Origin: Gemmatimonadota bacterium
GTDB lineage: Bacteria > Gemmatimonadota > Gemmatimonadetes > Gemmatimonadales > Gemmatimonadaceae
Direction: 5' to 3'
DNA: 49,752 nt
Assembly: GCA_021299375.1 (NCBI GenBank)
Contig: JAJTGR010000016.1
Coordinates: 1-49,752 of the forward strand
This document shows, piece by piece, positions 16,567 through 41,738 of the stretch (the first letter of the stretch is position 1; each line of letters starts with the position of its first letter). The notes under the pieces are model-generated. The model saw only the letters and a program-made list of their open reading frames with translations, did not search any database and was not told where the DNA came from. A program made the translations under genes and the position numbers.

Positions 16567-16605
16567 CGTCCCTGTGTTGCGTCCCTGTGTTGCGTCCCTG
16601 TGTTG
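16567..16605. repeat. 13-bp repeat CGTCCCTGTGTTG, three perfect copies
   Basis: Perfect copies at 16567, 16580 and 16593, followed by a degenerate CCTCCCTCC. The array ends 24 bp before the DUF1800 start codon, in what should be its 5' leader. Confidence 0.95.
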
Positions 16606-16629
16606 CCTCCCTCCGTCGACGCCCACCCC

Positions 16630-18186
16630 ATGACTGAACCGCACCGGCACAGCCGGCGTCAGTGGCTGCGGGGCAGTGCCGCGGCGCTCGGTGCCGCCGC
16701 CCTCGCGCCTGCCGTACTGCCTACCGACGCGGAGGCCCAGCCGCCCCGCCCCAGCAACACCACGCGCCTGCCCGGGCTCTTCAACCAGCTGACGCAGCAG
16801 ACCCAGTGGCGCTCGCCCGAGCTCCGGCTCGTGCGCCGGGTCACCCAGGGACTCACCGAGGCCGACGTGGCCCGTGTGCAGGCGCTCGGCTACAGCGGCT
16901 ATCTCGAGGAGCAGCTCAACCCGTCGGGGATCGACGACAGCGAGATGGATGCGCGGCTGCGTGACCCGCTCTACGTGCGCCTGCTGGGCTACACCCCCAA
17001 GGAACTGATCGACCGGGACGACGCGGGGAGCATCTACTTCGACGCGATCCTCCCCATGTCGTTGCTCACCGCCGAACGCGCCGTGCGATCGCGGCGGCAG
17101 CTGCAGGAGCGGATGTTCGAGTTCTTCTGCGACCACCTGCACGTGCCCGTCTGGTTCGAGGGGCTGCCGCCCATTCACTACGAGCGGGTGATCCGCCCGC
17201 ACGTGCTGGGCAGTTTCGGCGATCTCACGCGCGCCAGCATGCGCAGCACCGCGATGCTCTGGTATCTCGATCAGGTGTGGAGCACACGCTTCGGCCTCAA
17301 CGAGAACTACGCGCGTGAGCTGATGGAACTCCACACCGTCGGCGTGGATGGCGGCTACACCCAGGAGGATGTCGTGGGACTCGCCCGCGTGCTGACCGGG
17401 TGGAGCATGAACGAGCGCGGCGAGTTCGAGTACAAGGCCGGCAATCACGACTTCGGCGCCAAGCGCGCGTTCGGGATGTCGTTCCCCGCGCGCCCGCAAG
17501 CGTTCAGCGGAACCTCCGGCATGGAGGAAGGCATCGCCTTCGGCGAGATGCTCATTCGTCATCCGAGCACCAAGCGGTACCTCGCCACCAAGCTGCTGCG
17601 CTGGTTCGTGACGCCGACACCCACCGAGAAGCAGATCGTCGACGTGATGGCGGCGTACGGTGAACAGGGCGACATCAAGGCCATGCTGCGGGTGGTCCTC
17701 TCACGAGACAACATCACGCGGGCGCCCGCCAAGCTGAAGCGCCCGGCGCACTATGCGGCGTCGGTGCTGCGGGCCGTGCAACCGGAGCTGCGGCCAATCG
17801 CGGACATCCGGCGGGACTACCTCGTGCTCGCCTATCCGCAGAGCGGGATGCGACACCCGTACATGAACTGGTCCACGCCCGACGGCTATCCCGACAAGGC
17901 GGAGTACTGGGCCGGCCTGATCGTGGATCGCTGGAACGAGGTGGAGTGGAACCTTGTGACCGATTTCGACGCTCCTGGCCGCGCGGTCACGAATCCGGCC
18001 CGCTTCAACCCGGACGGGAGCATCGACGGCGTCGTCCGCACGATCAACACCCGGCTATTCGCCGGCGAGATGAGCGCCGCGCTCGATGGCGAGTTGCGGG
18101 CGGCGCTGCGTGGCGGGGTCACCAACGCTCGCATCCTGAACGCCCTCCGGTTGGCCGTGTCGGCCCCCGAATTCCACTTCTACTGA
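16630..18186 (+). CDS. DUF1800 family Tat-exported protein
   Basis: A 518-aa protein of unknown biochemical role. The N-terminus is a Tat signal (SRRQWLRGSAAALGAAALAP, cleavage near DAEA), so it is exported folded. Family landmarks follow: LNENYARELMELHTVGVDGG (about residues 225-245), VVGLARVLTGWSMN, a HDFGAK segment and HPSTKRYLATKLLRWFV. The length is normal for DUF1800. The ATG at 16630 is chosen because it starts the Tat signal; upstream frame is repeat. The next gene starts 20 bp downstream and encodes DUF1501. The two families are repeatedly found side by side, suggesting a joint periplasmic or surface role. The function is unknown. Confidence 0.9.
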   Translation: MTEPHRHSRRQWLRGSAAALGAAALAPAVLPTDAEAQPPRPSNTTRLPGLFNQLTQQTQWRSPELRLVRRVTQGLTEADVARVQALGYSGYLEEQLNPSGIDDSEMDARLRDPLYVRLLGYTPKELIDRDDAGSIYFDAILPMSLLTAERAVRSRRQLQERMFEFFCDHLHVPVWFEGLPPIHYERVIRPHVLGSFGDLTRASMRSTAMLWYLDQVWSTRFGLNENYARELMELHTVGVDGGYTQEDVVGLARVLTGWSMNERGEFEYKAGNHDFGAKRAFGMSFPARPQAFSGTSGMEEGIAFGEMLIRHPSTKRYLATKLLRWFVTPTPTEKQIVDVMAAYGEQGDIKAMLRVVLSRDNITRAPAKLKRPAHYAASVLRAVQPELRPIADIRRDYLVLAYPQSGMRHPYMNWSTPDGYPDKAEYWAGLIVDRWNEVEWNLVTDFDAPGRAVTNPARFNPDGSIDGVVRTINTRLFAGEMSAALDGELRAALRGGVTNARILNALRLAVSAPEFHFY

Positions 18187-18206
18187 GCCGCCCACCCCAC
18201 CGACCC

Positions 18207-19493
18207 ATGCATCATCCGCATCCTCATCACGAGGCGGGCGGCTGCGACGAGTATCGCACGCTCGACCGGCGTCGCTTTGTCAGTCTGAGTTCCATGAGTG
18301 CCATGGCGGCGGCGATGCCGGCGTGGTTTCCCGAGGTCCGTCTCGCGTCGTCGCAGAACAGCGCCCGTGACATCGTGGTGTCCGTGTTCATGCGCGGCGG
18401 GGCCGATGGCCTCACGCTCGTGGCGCCGTTTGGCGATCCGCTGTACTACGCCGGTCGTCCGACGATCGCCGTGCCGCGCCCCGATGCGACCTCGCCGAAT
18501 CGCGGCACCGCGCTGGACGACTTCTTCATGCTGCCGCCCGGCATGGCCGCGCTTCTGCCGGCCTACCGGGCCGGCCAGTTGGCCATCGTGCACGCGGCCG
18601 GGCAGCGGTACACCACGTCCCGCTCCCATTTCGAGGCCGAGATCTACCTCGAGAACGGCAAGCCGGACTATGCGATCGAGACCGGCTGGCTGGCCCGCCA
18701 TCTCGCGTCCTCCGAGCCGCTCGATCCGTCGGCTCCGCTGCGCGCCATTTCGGTCACCGGGGGCACGCGCCGTACCATGCAGGGCGCGCCCAGGACGCTA
18801 CCCATCCCGAACCCGGACAGCTACCAGCTCGGCTCCCCGAACGAACTCGCGTTGCAGCGCCTGTTCGCCAACGCCTGGTCGCCCATGCGCAATGCGGCGC
18901 TCGACGGGTTGAACACCGTGAACGTGATGCGCGGCGTGGACTTCCCGGGCTATCGCCCGGCGAATGGGGCGCAGTATGGCGACAACTATTTCGCGCGGTC
19001 GCTCCGGTCGGTGGCCACGATGATCCGCGCCGAAATCGGCTTGGAAGCGGCCCACCTCGACTACGGCGGCTGGGACACGCACGCCAATCAGGGCAGCGTG
19101 GGGCGTGGCAACGTCATGCACGACCTCATGACGGAATTCTCGGGAGCGCTGGCCGCCTTCTGGCAGGACATCATGCAGGGGCCGCCCTCGTTGCGCGTCA
19201 CACTGGTTGTGGCCACGGAGTTCGGCCGCAACGTGCGCGAGAACGGCAGTATGGGCACCGACCATGGCCGCGCGGGCGTGATGTTCGTGATGGGCCCCGC
19301 CGTGCGCGGCGGGCGCGTGTTCGGTGACTGGCCCGGCATCGCCATGGAGCTCCTCGAGGATGGGCAGGACCTGCGCGTGACCACCGATACCCGCGACATC
19401 CTCGCCGAACTGGTGCAGACGCGCCTCGGCAACGCCAATCAGTCACTGGTCTTCCCCAACTACGTGCCCCGTTTCCGCGGAGTGTTCCGATGA
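18207..19493 (+). CDS. DUF1501 family Tat-exported protein
   Basis: A 428-aa protein related to the sulfatase/alkaline phosphatase fold. The N-terminus has a twin-arginine motif ([10 protein letters not shown]) before a weakly hydrophobic stretch. Characteristic DUF1501 segments are [13 protein letters not shown] (about residue 50), [34 protein letters not shown] and [18 protein letters not shown]. The Asp/His residues in the last segments are where metal ligands sit in related hydrolases. It starts 20 bp after DUF1800 and overlaps the collagen-like gene by four bases (ATGA). No substrate can be given. Confidence 0.9.
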
Positions 19494-19972
19494 CCGTGTT
19501 CCAGCTGCCGCGTCGCCTGGTGCTGATCGGTACGCTGCTCGCGACCGCCGCCTGCGCCGGTGCTGAGGGGCCCGCCGGGCCGCAAGGGCCCGCCGGTCCG
19601 ACCGGTCCACAAGGGCCGACCGGGCCTGCCGGCCCCGCCGGGGCACCGGGGGCGACGGGGCCGGCAGGGCCCGTTGGACCGCAGGGCCCGGCTGGTCCGG
19701 CGGGTGTCGTGAACCGTGTGGAGTCCACCGGCCTGTTCGACGCCAGCGGCACCTTTTCGCTTCCCCTGCCGGCGGCGGCTACGGCCAACGGGCGGCTCCC
19801 GTTCGTGGCCTGCTGGATCTCCACCGACAACAACACCTGGCTCTCGGTGAGTCAGGTGCCCGCCACCAGCAGTGACGTGTACTGCGGGGTGACGACCGTC
19901 GGCACGACGCGCTCGATCACGATCGTGAACGGCGTGGCCGGCTGGCGCTACTACCTGCTGGCCATGTGGTGA
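19490..19972 (+). CDS. Collagen-like putative lipoprotein
   Basis: A 160-aa exported protein. After a signal peptide with a possible lipobox (LLATAAC, Cys22; Thr at -3 is atypical), about sixteen uninterrupted Gly-X-Y triplets span residues 24-71 ([15 protein letters not shown] type). A globular C-terminal domain of about 88 residues carries Trp and two Cys (FVACWIS, DVYCGV). Gly-Pro-rich triplets imply a trimeric collagen triple helix projecting a C-terminal head. The ATG overlaps the DUF1501 stop and its own stop overlaps the next start, so it is part of one coupled unit. Head function is unknown. Confidence 0.85.
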
Positions 19973-22605
19973 GCGCGCCCGTGATCCGGCGTCTCCTCGC
20001 CACGCGCGACCCACAGCGGATGGCCGCGCTGCTGGCCGGCGGGACCGCGGCGTTGCTGTTCGGCGGCTGCCAGGCCGCGGAGGCGCCGGTGCGCAGCACC
20101 GACGCCACCCTCACCGTGTCGGTGCCCGACTTCCGGGCCGGCTCACCGCGCGTCGATGTCACCGCGGCTGAGGTGGTCGTGGGGCAGAGTCGTGGTGGTG
20201 GATTCCAGAGCTTCGGACAGGTACCGGTGACGGCGGCGCAGTTCGGGCAGCGTGTCGCCGTGCCCGTGAAGCTTGCCTGCGGCACGGTGTCGGGCTGCAC
20301 CGTGCTGGCGCGGCTGCGCCTCCTCGGGAACGGCGGGGCACCCTTCGACTCCGCCGACTCCGAATCGTTCGCCCTCACCGGAGGCGCGACGCGCGAGGTG
20401 GGTGGCTTCACGTTGCGCGCCGTGCGCCGGCTCGCGGCCGCCGATACGCTGCTGGTGGCGCCACTCAATGGCACCGGCCAACTCACGGTCACGGCGTTCG
20501 ACGACGCCGATCGCCCACTCCAGCGGCGAGTGCTGACCTGGTCGTCGCTCGATCCCACGGTGGCGGCCGTCGACTCGCTCGGGCGCGTGACCGGGCTGCG
20601 CCCCGGCCGCACCGCAGTGGTGGCCACGGCCGGCGCAGCACGCGCCACGGTCGCCGTGGCGGTGAACGCCGTGCAGGCGTTCACCCTGTCGGCGAGCGCC
20701 ACACGCGTCATCGCCACGCTGACCGTGCGTCTCACGCCCTCCATCACGGTCGGCCCCGGCGTCAGCCAGCGCGTACGCTACCGGAGCAGCGACACCGCCG
20801 TGGCCGTCGTGAGCGACAACGGCACGGTGCAGACCCGCCGCAATGGCACGGTGATCATCACGGGCATTGCGGAGGCCGACACGCTGCAGCAGCGCACCGT
20901 GTCGATCACCGTCGACCCGTTTCGCGCCGCGACCAGCTACGCCGGGGTGCAGGTGCTCTCACGCGGTGACATCCCGGGCAACCTCACCGGGCTCTGGGGC
21001 GAGCGCTTCGACAACCTGGTGGGAGTGGGATGCGGCGTGTTCGCGCGCTGGAACGGCACGTCGTGGCGCGTCGAACAGACGCCTGGCTACTGCGCCCTTG
21101 GCGCGGCGGGCACTGCCGACAACAACGTGGTGGCGGTTGGCACCCAGATCTGGCGCTTCAACGGCACGGCGTGGGCGCGTGAGACGGTCGCGTTCACCGG
21201 CGAACTGCAGTCGGCGGCCGCCGTCGACGGCGTCATCTACGCCGTGGGTCAGCATGGCCAGATCCTGCGGCGATCCGACGCCGGGTGGAGCCCCATGCCG
21301 TCGCCCACGACGCGCACGCTTCGCACCGTGCACGGCATCACCGGCAACAACATCTGGGCCGTGGGGGACGGGGGGGTGATGCTCCGCTACAACGGGACCA
21401 CGTGGCAGGTGCAGAACGCGCCCGACGGACAGTTTTTCGATTGCCGCACGGTCCACGTGCGCGGCCCGAGCGATGTGCTGGCCAGCTGCAATGAACGCGG
21501 CTGGGGGTGGAGCATCCAGCGCTGGAATGGCTCGAGCTGGATACGTATGGACACGCCGCAACGCGAGTTCATTACCGACATCGCCGAGGGGAACGGGCGC
21601 CTGTGGGCTGTGGGGTCGCAGCGCACGATCTACCGGCAGGAAGGTGATGGGTGGGTGCAGGATGCCGAGCGGCTCGGTGACGTGAATGTGCAGGCGATCT
21701 ACGCCGACGCGCGTGGTGTGTTGGCCGTGGGCAACGAAGGTCTGTCCATGCAGCGCACGACGAGTGGGTGGACCATCCGGTCGGGGTATCCACTGTACGA
21801 GGCCATGTGGGCGGGTGGTCCCGATCTCATCGTGGCGGGCGGGACACGTGGGGCCATCGACGTGTTCGACGGGACGCGCTGGAGTGCGTCCCGTCCGATC
21901 GGCGAGCAGCACAGTATTCGGGCCGTATGGGGCGCGGCGCGCGATGCGATCTTCGCGGTGGGGCCGTTCGCCACCATGCTGCGCTACAACGGCCTGCAAT
22001 GGCAGCAGATGAACGTCCCCACCACGGCGTGGATTCACGGGGTATGGGGCGTGAGCCGCGACAGTGTGTGGGCCGTCACCTCGAGTGGCGAGATCATGTT
22101 CTACAACGGCAGCCAGTGGGCGCTCACCTTCCGCACGGGAGGCCAGCTCCTCGATATCCATGGCCGCGATGCCCGAAACATCGTCGCCGTTGGCGACGGC
22201 GGGCGAATCTGGCGATTCGATGGTCGCAGCTGGCAGCGCGAGGAGTCCAACACCGATGTGCAGCTGCGCGCCGTGTTCGTGGGCCCCACGCGCACGTTCG
22301 CCGCGTCGGGGAGCCAGCTCTTCGAGTACCGTGGCGGTGAGTGGCTGGCTCCGGTGACCGTTCCCGGCAGCAACTTCACGTGGCTTGCCGGCACGGGTGA
22401 TGCCGACGTGTATGCTGGCGGGTGTGGCGCGCAGACCCGTCGGTTCGATGGGTCGACGTGGACGGCCGAGGTCCCCACGACCCTTACTCAGTGCACGTTC
22501 AGTGGTGCGGTGCTGCCAGGTGGCGGGCTGGTGATCGGCGGCGCGCTGCGTGACGTGATCAGCGGCACCGGGCCAAACGGGGTCACCCCGGGGGTGCCGC
22601 GCTGA
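19969..22605 (+). CDS. Large Big_2 / beta-propeller-like lipoprotein
   Basis: An 878-aa surface or periplasmic protein. The GTG at 19969 overlaps the previous stop as GTGA; GTG 19966 is also possible. A hydrophobic signal ends in FGGC. Two Big_2 (Ig-like) domains are seen near residues 165-225 ([20 protein letters not shown]) and 245-310. From about residue 320 to 860 the pattern WAVGxxGxIxRYNGxxW recurs at roughly 45-55 residue spacing, at least ten times, as in propeller-type repeats. No catalytic motif is visible. It is the last gene of the DUF1800 unit. Structural or adhesive function is an inference. Confidence 0.8.
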
Positions 22606-39686: not shown

Positions 39687-41738
39687 GTGAGGGATCAGGC
39701 CACTTCCGTGAGGCCACACCGAGTGTTCGCAACGCAAGGCTCCACAACCACTTGCACCGTCGCCCCCAGGCGGCGTCGCCACCCGCTCGGCGCCGCGCGG
39801 GTGGCATGCCTCGTGGGGGTGTTGCACGCCTGCAGCGGTGGTGACGCCACGGCGCCAGCCCCGGCTCCGACGACCTCGGCGCCCGCCACCCCGATCGCGC
39901 CCCGGGTGACCCGACTCGGCCCCGACACCCTCACTGCCGGCGGCACGCTGATCATCGAGGGCCTTCACTTTCCCGCCGCCCTCGCGGACATCCAGCTCAC
40001 CGTGGGCGGCGTGCCGCTCGCCGTTCGCGCCGCCAGCGCCACCCGCATCGAAGCCACCATGCCGGACACCGCCTTCGCCTGCCGCGCCGTGACCGCCATG
40101 CCGGTGCGCCTCCGTCTGGCCAGCATCGTGATCGACACCGTCGCCCCCGTCGCGACCGCCACCCGCCTCGCCCTCTCCCCCGGCGAGACCGCCCAGCTCC
40201 TCGAAACCCACGAGTCCCGCTGCCTCGAACTCGTCGCCCCCACGAACGGCACCACCGCCCGCTACGTCGTGGCCGTCGTCAACACCAGTACCGACCCCAA
40301 CGGCGCCGCGACCGTTGACCTCCGCGGCACCGGCACCGGAAGCCTCGCCGGCGTAGAAAGCACCGAGCAACTCCACGGCCTCACCGCGCACTGGCGGTCC
40401 TCCCCCCTCCCCCCGGCACCGCTCCCCGCTGATGCCTCGGGGTTCCACACAAGAAGCCTCACCACCTCCGTCTCCGCCACAGCCGCCTGGTCCTCCGCCA
40501 CCCGCACCACCCTGAAGTCCCTCCGCGCCCCCCTCCAGCTCGGCGACACCCTCAGCATCACCGCGCTGCTCGGCTCCTGCACCACCGGCAAGCCCCTCGA
40601 GGCCCGCGTTGTCTACGCCGGCACCCGGGCCCTCATCCTCGAGGACCTCGCCGCCCCCCGCGCCGGCCGCATGGATGGCACCTACAAGCAGCTTGGTACC
40701 GAATACGAACAGGTCGTTCACCCCCTGCTCACCGGGCAGATCGGTAACCCCCTCGCCATGAACGCCACCATGGGCGGCGACGGGCGCATCACCATGCTCT
40801 TCACCCCGTTCGTCAACGACTCCGCCCCCGGCACCGCCGCCTATGTGAGCGCCTGCAACTTCTATCCGCGCGCCACCTTTGCCGGCAGCAACGAGAATGA
40901 AGTCATCTACGCCCGCATCGCCACCGCGCACGAGACGCCGGACGATTGGCGCCGGGCCATGCGCTCCACGATCGTGCACGAGGCCAAGCACCTTGCCAGC
41001 TTCGCCGAGCGACTGGCTCGCGGGCATGGCTTTGACGACGCGTGGATGGAGGAGGCTACTGCGCGCATCGCCGAGGAGCTGTACGCGCGCACCTTCCCGG
41101 GCGGAGGGAGTTTCCGGGGGCGCACCGGGTTCGCCGGCAGCGTAGGCTGCGAGCTGCGCCTGTGCGATGATCGCCCGCTCATCATGTGGAAGCACTTTTC
41201 GCAGCTGCACCAGTATCTGGCCGGCGGCGAAACGCTTACGCCGCTTGGCCCGGCCCATCGCGCCGACGCCACTCACTACGCGAGCGGCTGGTCCCTGGTG
41301 CGCTGGGCCCTCGATGCCTTTGCCACCGAGGAATCGCAGGCCCTCCGGGCACTCGTGCGGGGCGGCGGTGGCCGCGGCGTGGAGGCGTTGGCGTCGAGTA
41401 TCGGCCGGCCTCGCGATGAGGTGGTCACCGGGTGGGCGATCGCCAACGCGGTCGGTGCCCTTGGGAGCGACCTGACCAATGCCGGCCAGGCGTCGTGGAA
41501 CGTGCCCGACGTGTGGAGTGGGTTGGCCAGGGAGTTTCCCGGGGCGTTTCGCGCCACGCCGCTCCAGGCGCGACAGCTGACCTTCGGGCGCTTCTCCACC
41601 CACGTGGCCGCGCTCGCCCCGCTGGGCGTGCACCACGTCGTACTCGCCGGCGAGCAGTCCGGTGCCCAGCTGCTCGTACTCGAGGGCGCGCGGATGGATC
41701 CATCGGGTCTACGGCTGCTGGTGAGTCGGCTGCCGTAG
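39687..41738 (+). CDS. IPT-domain lipoprotein with HExxH metalloprotease motif
   Basis: A protein of up to 683 aa; GTG starts at 39687, 39708 or 39723 are possible and none has a Shine-Dalgarno sequence. A signal with LHAC (lipobox) suggests a lipoprotein. An Ala/Pro/Thr linker precedes an IPT/TIG domain (LGPDTLTAGGTLIIEGLHF). The central part is unassigned. At nt 40977-40991 the frame reads HEAKH, in IVHEAKHLASFAERL, with a Glu about twenty residues later (WMEEATARIAEE), the zinc gluzincin layout seen in hyicolysin-like peptidases (M30). Cys residues near 41150 may form a disulfide. No neighbour suggests a substrate. The protease call is by motif only. Confidence 0.72.
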   Translation: MRDQATSVRPHRVFATQGSTTTCTVAPRRRRHPLGAARVACLVGVLHACSGGDATAPAPAPTTSAPATPIAPRVTRLGPDTLTAGGTLIIEGLHFPAALADIQLTVGGVPLAVRAASATRIEATMPDTAFACRAVTAMPVRLRLASIVIDTVAPVATATRLALSPGETAQLLETHESRCLELVAPTNGTTARYVVAVVNTSTDPNGAATVDLRGTGTGSLAGVESTEQLHGLTAHWRSSPLPPAPLPADASGFHTRSLTTSVSATAAWSSATRTTLKSLRAPLQLGDTLSITALLGSCTTGKPLEARVVYAGTRALILEDLAAPRAGRMDGTYKQLGTEYEQVVHPLLTGQIGNPLAMNATMGGDGRITMLFTPFVNDSAPGTAAYVSACNFYPRATFAGSNENEVIYARIATAHETPDDWRRAMRSTIVHEAKHLASFAERLARGHGFDDAWMEEATARIAEELYARTFPGGGSFRGRTGFAGSVGCELRLCDDRPLIMWKHFSQLHQYLAGGETLTPLGPAHRADATHYASGWSLVRWALDAFATEESQALRALVRGGGGRGVEALASSIGRPRDEVVTGWAIANAVGALGSDLTNAGQASWNVPDVWSGLAREFPGAFRATPLQARQLTFGRFSTHVAALAPLGVHHVVLAGEQSGAQLLVLEGARMDPSGLRLLVSRLP

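Follow-up and report, generated by a model that had tools for sequence, protein, structure and literature searches.

A Recurrent Gene Unit Couples DUF1800 and DUF1501 Proteins to a Collagen-like Lipoprotein in Gemmatimonadota: A Possible Cassette for Enzyme Display at the Cell Envelope

DUF1800 and DUF1501 are widespread families of exported proteins, for which no function was found in the literature searched. In Gemmatimonadota, genes for one member of each family form a compact unit with genes for a collagen-like lipoprotein and, in most of the variants described below, a second lipoprotein. The reading favoured here, tentatively and at close to even chances, is a cassette that displays an enzyme in the envelope or at the surface, in which the putatively Tat-exported DUF1800-DUF1501 pair would be presented by stalked lipoproteins. 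No description of the four-gene unit was found in the literature searched, but its core pair is already known from PVC bacteria and from chitin-synthase operons, while the accessory collagen and copper proteins seem to be new. The initial annotation as the best candidate for an undescribed system thus holds, within that literature, for the whole unit and not for its core. The locus and its relatives provide handles on both families, i.e., a predicted enzyme fold for DUF1501, coupling of the pair to a probably lipid-anchored collagen stalk, and a reproducible association, within one phylum, with genes for type II secretion and for blue-copper lipoproteins.

Gene Order and Distribution

The window, i.e., the whole stretch of 49,752 nucleotides that was analysed, originates from a freshwater Gemmatimonas-type bacterium. 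Four open reading frames span positions 16630-22605 of its plus strand: a DUF1800 gene (16630..18186, 518 aa), a DUF1501 gene (18207..19493, 428 aa), a gene for a collagen-like lipoprotein (19490..19972, 160 aa) and a gene for a Big_2/propeller lipoprotein (19969..22605, 878 aa). The order and the spacing of +20, -4 and -4 bp that had been noted initially are borne out by the reading frames and by Pfam matches. The adjacent and co-oriented DUF1800 and DUF1501 genes each exceed their Pfam cut-offs (E 1.8e-93 and E 3.2e-26, respectively), and the third and fourth proteins match Collagen (E 4.1e-9, 36.5 bits against a cut-off of 27.2) and Big_2 (E 7.5e-14). The overlapping nucleotides are ATGA between the DUF1501 and collagen genes and GTGA between the collagen and propeller genes. 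The unit is self-contained: it is flanked by a PPIase gene upstream and nth downstream, both on the minus strand, and holds its four genes alone, without a chitin synthase gene. A scan for sigma-70 promoters and terminators found none and is uninformative at such G+C. A defence system was considered as well and rejected, as PADLOC gave no match.

The four-gene unit is not a one-genome accident. The initial annotation had staked its case on the collagen and propeller genes adjoining the pair in more than this one genome, and they do so in 11 and 6 genomes, respectively. A DNA-pattern search of genome contigs gave just three loci, to which whole-genome searches added others, and the DUF1800-DUF1501-collagen trio is now seen in 11 sampled genomes from three genera and in several genomic contexts. 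All collagen-linked DUF1501 proteins (11/11) fall into one clade with a support of 100/98. The start/stop overlap between the DUF1501 and collagen genes is exactly 4 bp in 8/8 carrier genomes of the genus (7 ATGA, 1 GTGA) and is also found in G185, which belongs to another genus. Such overlaps suggest translational coupling, as opposed to binding between the products.

The pair itself has a much wider distribution than the lipoproteins. Azospirillum and Sphingomonas plasmids carry DUF1800-DUF1501 pairs without these lipoproteins and with no annotated collagen gene or redox partner, and at G401-type loci outside the phylum the pair is present while no Gly-X-Y, blue-copper or type II secretion gene was flagged. 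The collagen and propeller lipoproteins are therefore dispensable for the basic function of the pair. They could even be co-regulated passengers, which share the promoter of the pair and act apart from it. This would agree with solo collagen lipoproteins that have the same C-terminal domain in G262 and G329, and a more divergent one in G208, and also with the exchangeable fourth slot and the propeller-like proteins encoded elsewhere in the same genome. The single clade of the collagen-linked DUF1501 proteins (11/11) and the start/stop overlap kept across several genomic contexts speak against passengers, however, and this explanation is considered clearly unlikely.

The DUF1501 and DUF1800 Proteins

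The model of the DUF1501 protein (mean pLDDT 85) predicts a fold of the alkaline phosphatase superfamily, which includes PafA, NPP, sulfatases, MCR/EptC, BcsG and YejM. Foldseek matched it to alkaline phosphatases, NPP phosphodiesterases, sulfatases and phosphoethanolamine transferases with a best E of 1.2e-4, yet at only about 10% identity and TM values of just 0.3-0.4, and catalysis is putative. The best structural match is PafA (Z 18.5, rmsd 4.3 over 280 residues). Residues D67, S140, D290, H292, D352 and H353 are invariant in 42 sequences, and E338 is listed as invariant as well. The resulting Asp, Ser, Asp/His and Asp-His set may correspond to that of the superfamily and provides candidate active-site residues. 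A sequence-only search for solved relatives gave nothing usable for either DUF1501 or DUF1800.

The DUF1800 protein is predicted to be mostly helical and has a set of invariant residues, H169, R229, E230, E233, H235, D247, H273 and K278. Foldseek with its model returned unrelated helical proteins at a best E of 1.0, and thus no recognisable solved fold. The initial description of both proteins as being of unknown function is qualified by the predicted enzyme fold in the case of DUF1501.

Tat export of both proteins, as initially proposed, is plausible on the basis of conserved twin arginines. These occur as SRRQWLR in DUF1800 and as DRRRFV in DUF1501, where they are preceded by a conserved C-x-E-Y and nearly invariant among DUF1501 sequences. 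The profile searches fall short of this: the window DUF1800 reaches 13.0 bits against a TAT cut-off of 16.7 bits, and the window DUF1501 does not match the TAT model TIGR01409, which two of its relatives pass at 19.0 bits.

The Lipoproteins

The collagen-like lipoprotein contains a signal peptide and a likely lipid-carrying Cys22, followed at residues 24-74 (19559..19711, plus strand) by 17 uninterrupted Gly-X-Y triplets with proline at X in 13. Its C-terminal domain (19709..19969, plus strand; 87 aa) is better conserved than the stalk, with two invariant cysteines and 26 invariant columns among 10 relatives, and no Pfam or PDB relative of this domain was found. A collagen-like stalk with a globular head is also seen in streptococcal Scl and in Legionella Lcl. 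Lcl is a trimer that is secreted and then targeted to the bacterial surface, where its stalk with a trimeric head acts as an adhesin (PMC11162425). The window protein differs from both by its probable N-terminal lipid anchor and by having just 17 triplets. The protein does not classify as an Lcl/Scl-type adhesin, since neither a DUF1566 match in the head nor an LPXTG motif was found and the scores against curated collagen-like adhesin models (31.0-38.6 bits) are far below the cut-offs of 325-500.

In a broader sense, the two lipoproteins could still be the functional products of an adhesin or matrix system, with DUF1800 and DUF1501 maturing or modifying them. The role of Lcl as an adhesin and the conservation of the C-terminal domain over the stalk are in line with this, but the role of the pair cannot be lipoprotein-specific, because the pair occurs much more widely than they do, and the identity of the fourth protein changes. 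This alternative is therefore rated improbable. Of the functions envisaged initially, i.e., matrix, adhesion or export, a pure matrix or adhesin is less likely than a stalk-displayed surface enzyme because of the predicted DUF1501 fold, and no direct support was found for an export system.

The fourth protein contains a likely lipid-carrying Cys34 and Big_2 domains, followed by about 550 residues of beta-propeller-like repeats with a 39-residue period. This region has no curated Pfam match, with Tectonin remaining below its cut-off. Propeller-like proteins are also encoded at other places in the same genome. The fourth gene is exchangeable: its slot is occupied by the propeller lipoprotein in 6 genomes of one genus and by a lipoprotein with three Ig domains and, at its end, a blue-copper domain in G003, G122 and G185, while G029 has no fourth lipoprotein. 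The tight spacing had been taken initially to imply a stoichiometric surface complex, but the exchangeable fourth gene argues against a fixed four-protein complex.

Proposed Role at the Cell Envelope

In the display cassette favoured here, DUF1501 would be a hydrolase or transferase of the alkaline phosphatase superfamily, as predicted from its model, and would leave in a folded state via Tat together with its regular partner DUF1800. The two lipoproteins of the overlapping gene chain would tether the pair to the outer membrane or display it there. The collagen protein may form a lipid-anchored trimeric stalk of about 14 nm that bears the conserved head, while the fourth protein would be an Ig-stalk lipoprotein with a swappable head, a propeller here and a blue-copper domain elsewhere. 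The substrate would probably be an ester of the phosphate or sulfate type, carried by a polymer outside the cell or on its surface. If the collagen protein indeed presents an enzyme, bacterial collagen would here serve a purpose other than adhesion.

A type II secretion system is a plausible route across the outer membrane. Type II secretion core genes are located upstream of sister pairs from this phylum, and a blue-copper lipoprotein gene adjoins the same clade, but no type II secretion gene adjoins the window copy. The type II secretion neighbours could also point to an apparatus that itself serves secretion or export. As none of the four proteins matched a pore, ATPase or pseudopilin family in profile searches and the fold predicted for DUF1501 belongs to an enzyme superfamily, this is scarcely credible. 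A further-reaching version of the display cassette is a modular machine on the surface of Gemmatimonadota that has not been described before. A Tat- and type II-secreted enzyme of alkaline phosphatase fold and DUF1800, as a novel-fold metalloprotein, would sit on a triple helix of lipid-anchored collagen, and an Ig stalk next to it would bear a head of either the blue-copper or the propeller type as an exchangeable part. In this full form, the proposal is unlikely.

Copper-Linked Neighbourhoods and Related Modules

The blue-copper motif is closely associated with the loci of this clade, with 21 matches within 3 kb and 0 in the 464 kb beyond. It could thus reflect a copper-linked extracellular redox system, in which DUF1800 would be a metalloenzyme using H169, E230, E233, H235 and H273, and the blue-copper lipoprotein its partner in the exchange of electrons or metal. 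DUF1501 would then be a companion, and the propeller would have taken the place of the copper protein in the window lineage. In Emiliania huxleyi, an up-regulated gene set is enriched in both DUF1800 and plastocyanin-type domains (PMC7563939), which is consistent with such a link. The other DUF1501 type of the phylum is encoded after a heme-binding PSCyt1-DUF1549-DUF1553 protein (L151-L154), to whose DUF1553 region DUF1800 shows a distant hhalign match (probability 52%, E 1.4e-4); the control, DUF1501 against the DUF1553-type profile, gave no match (1%). On the other hand, neither the window nor any of the five further propeller units yielded a copper-motif gene, the plasmid-borne pairs have no annotated redox partner, and the cofactor site of DUF1800, in a fold that matches nothing solved, is putative. 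A redox system is therefore possible, though on the unlikely side.

The PSCyt1-DUF1549-DUF1553 module resembles the window unit in that DUF1501 directly follows a large partner. In the window, however, this partner is DUF1800, which has no heme domain, and the DUF1501 subfamily differs. Bacterial chitin synthase operons contain DUF1800 and DUF1501 as neighbouring genes, the latter with a twin-arginine motif (PMC5122149), and thus share with the window the two Pfam families and their arrangement. In contrast to these operons, the window unit is devoid of a chitin synthase or sugar epimerase, its pair is followed by the collagen and propeller lipoproteins, and in its relatives the pair has blue-copper lipoproteins or genes for type II secretion as companions.

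Organization of the gene unit

The DUF1800-DUF1501 pair is encoded in the window at 16630-18186 and 18207-19493 on the plus strand, followed on the same strand by genes for a collagen lipoprotein (19490-19972) and a large lipoprotein with Big_2 domains and beta-propeller-like repeats, termed propeller here (19969-22605). Checking of ORF coordinates reproduced exactly the four ORFs and the spacings (+20, -4 and -4 bp) of the initial annotation. Pfam scores are far above cut-off for DUF1800 and DUF1501, and reach 36.5 bits for Collagen (cut-off 27.2 bits) and 51.9 bits for Big_2. The unit stands alone, because gene calling places minus-strand genes on both sides, a peptidyl-prolyl isomerase (PPIase) and nth, named by reading their sequences. 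Simple scans found neither a promoter nor a terminator at the unit. Immediately 5' of the DUF1800 start, cgtccctgtgttg occurs three times in tandem (16567-16606). A large plus-strand ORF at 39906-41738, starting like an IPT/TIG-type Ig domain, possibly encodes another surface protein.

The reading with the best support has lipoproteins displaying an exported pair of enzymes, on an observed and computed basis of conservation, gene overlap, fold prediction and genomic links. Trimerization of the collagen, binding between the proteins, a surface location, use of the type II system and the substrate are inferred.

The DUF1800-DUF1501 pair

AlphaFold models, built from alignments of 42 (DUF1501) and 40 (DUF1800) sequences, have mean pLDDT values of 85.1 and 85.7, respectively. 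The DUF1501 model resembles the alkaline phosphatase superfamily (best Foldseek E-value 1.2e-4, with low TM scores of 0.3-0.4), and in a second comparison, in which it matched PafA, NPP phosphodiesterases and phosphoethanolamine transferases, Z values reached 18.5. Asp67, Ser140, Asp290, His292, Asp352 and His353 are invariant. The DUF1800 model is mostly helical and Foldseek matched it to no solved structure; its invariant His, Glu and Asp residues might bind metal. A weak profile match links DUF1800 to a DUF1553 region (52%, E 1.4e-4), while a control gave none.

In this DUF1501 subfamily, C-x-E-Y is conserved right before the twin-arginine motif (window 18207-18280), often as C-x-C-x-E-Y and at times with a His-rich start, on the cytoplasmic side of the signal peptide. 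Metal loading ahead of Tat export is our guess for this motif.

The pair, of unknown function, is already known from chitin synthase operons (PMC5122149), and DUF1501 modules from PVC bacteria (PMC4452313). In the literature searched, no paper connects collagen-like proteins with the pair, and no paper contains both 'Gemmatimonas' and 'collagen-like'.

The collagen lipoprotein

In this protein, a signal peptide ends at Cys22, which probably carries the lipid; 17 Gly-X-Y triplets (residues 24-74) follow almost directly, and then an 87-residue C-terminal domain. The lipobox of the window's protein is non-canonical at -3 (Thr), but relatives have LQAC, LTAC or LAAC. Collagen rises by ~0.86 nm per triplet, which would give a stalk about 14 nm long. 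Stalk length varies among relatives, unlike the conserved C-terminal domain, which has 26 invariant columns, two Cys among them, across 10 relatives, and no Pfam match above cut-off or PDB sequence match. Legionella Lcl is the closest collagen-like parallel, but differs in head and anchor.

Distribution and phylogeny

In a set of 61 related genomes, a window-type DUF1501 accompanied by a collagen gene was found in the genome of the window and in seven more of its genus. Searches across the phylum, covering 200 genomes for Collagen and DUF1501 and 395 for the C-terminal domain, brought in three genomes of two further genera, G122, G185 and G282, in all of which the genes follow one another as DUF1800, DUF1501, collagen. 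The DUF1501 and collagen genes overlap by exactly 4 bp in G185 and in every one of the eight genus members; in G122, the earliest plausible collagen start lies 69 bases 3' of the DUF1501 stop. The PPIase/nth surroundings are shared by the window and its nearest relatives, and others are found in G016/G027/G024, G003 and G122/G185. A tree built from 40 DUF1501 proteins unites the 11 that are linked to collagen in a single group (support 100/98), and the label changes once; none of 500 label shuffles matched this grouping.

The identity of the fourth gene divides along this tree. The window and five relatives encode the propeller there, and G003, G122 and G185 a lipoprotein with three Ig domains and a blue-copper domain at its end; Pfam Copper-bind falls slightly under cut-off in G003 and G185 and is unmatched in G122, yet the copper-ligand motif is intact there. 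In G282, an Ig-like lipoprotein runs past the contig end, and G029 has no fourth lipoprotein.

The C-terminal domain also occurs in solo lipoproteins of G329 (L148, 8674-9240) and G262 (L147, 8301-8858), and more distantly in G208. The G329 gene lies near genes resembling phage tail or baseplate genes. A disrupted collagen gene copy in G014 (L050, 9580-9831), near which no DUF1501 was found, is apparently a decaying remnant.

Sister loci and alternative roles

Elsewhere in the phylum, DUF1501s of the same type lie mostly 3' of type II secretion genes (GspD/E/F, often GspG) or divergent from GspG/F; GspF and GspG were called by Pfam in one locus, the others by similarity to reference proteins. 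A blue-copper gene adjoins the pair in 20 loci, convergent in sister loci and as fourth operon gene in collagen loci. Its motif gave 21 matches at up to 3 kb from DUF1501 and none in the 464 kb farther out. These blue-copper partners, together with heme partners, suggest a redox role, the main rival to lipoprotein display of an enzyme pair. In the loci observed from outside the phylum, no collagen, blue-copper or type II secretion partner accompanied the pair. The adhesin or matrix system envisaged in the initial annotation is possible, but does not account for how widely the bare pair occurs.

In Emiliania huxleyi, a set of up-regulated genes is enriched both for DUF1800 and for plastocyanin-type domains, with two genes apiece, possibly the same proteins (PMC7563939).

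The window genome contains a third, more distant pair on contig C64, and a second immediately 3' of GspD/E/F on C78 (L038, 10926-15211). The C78 pair is followed by a transposase-type-looking gene where relatives have a copper or propeller gene.
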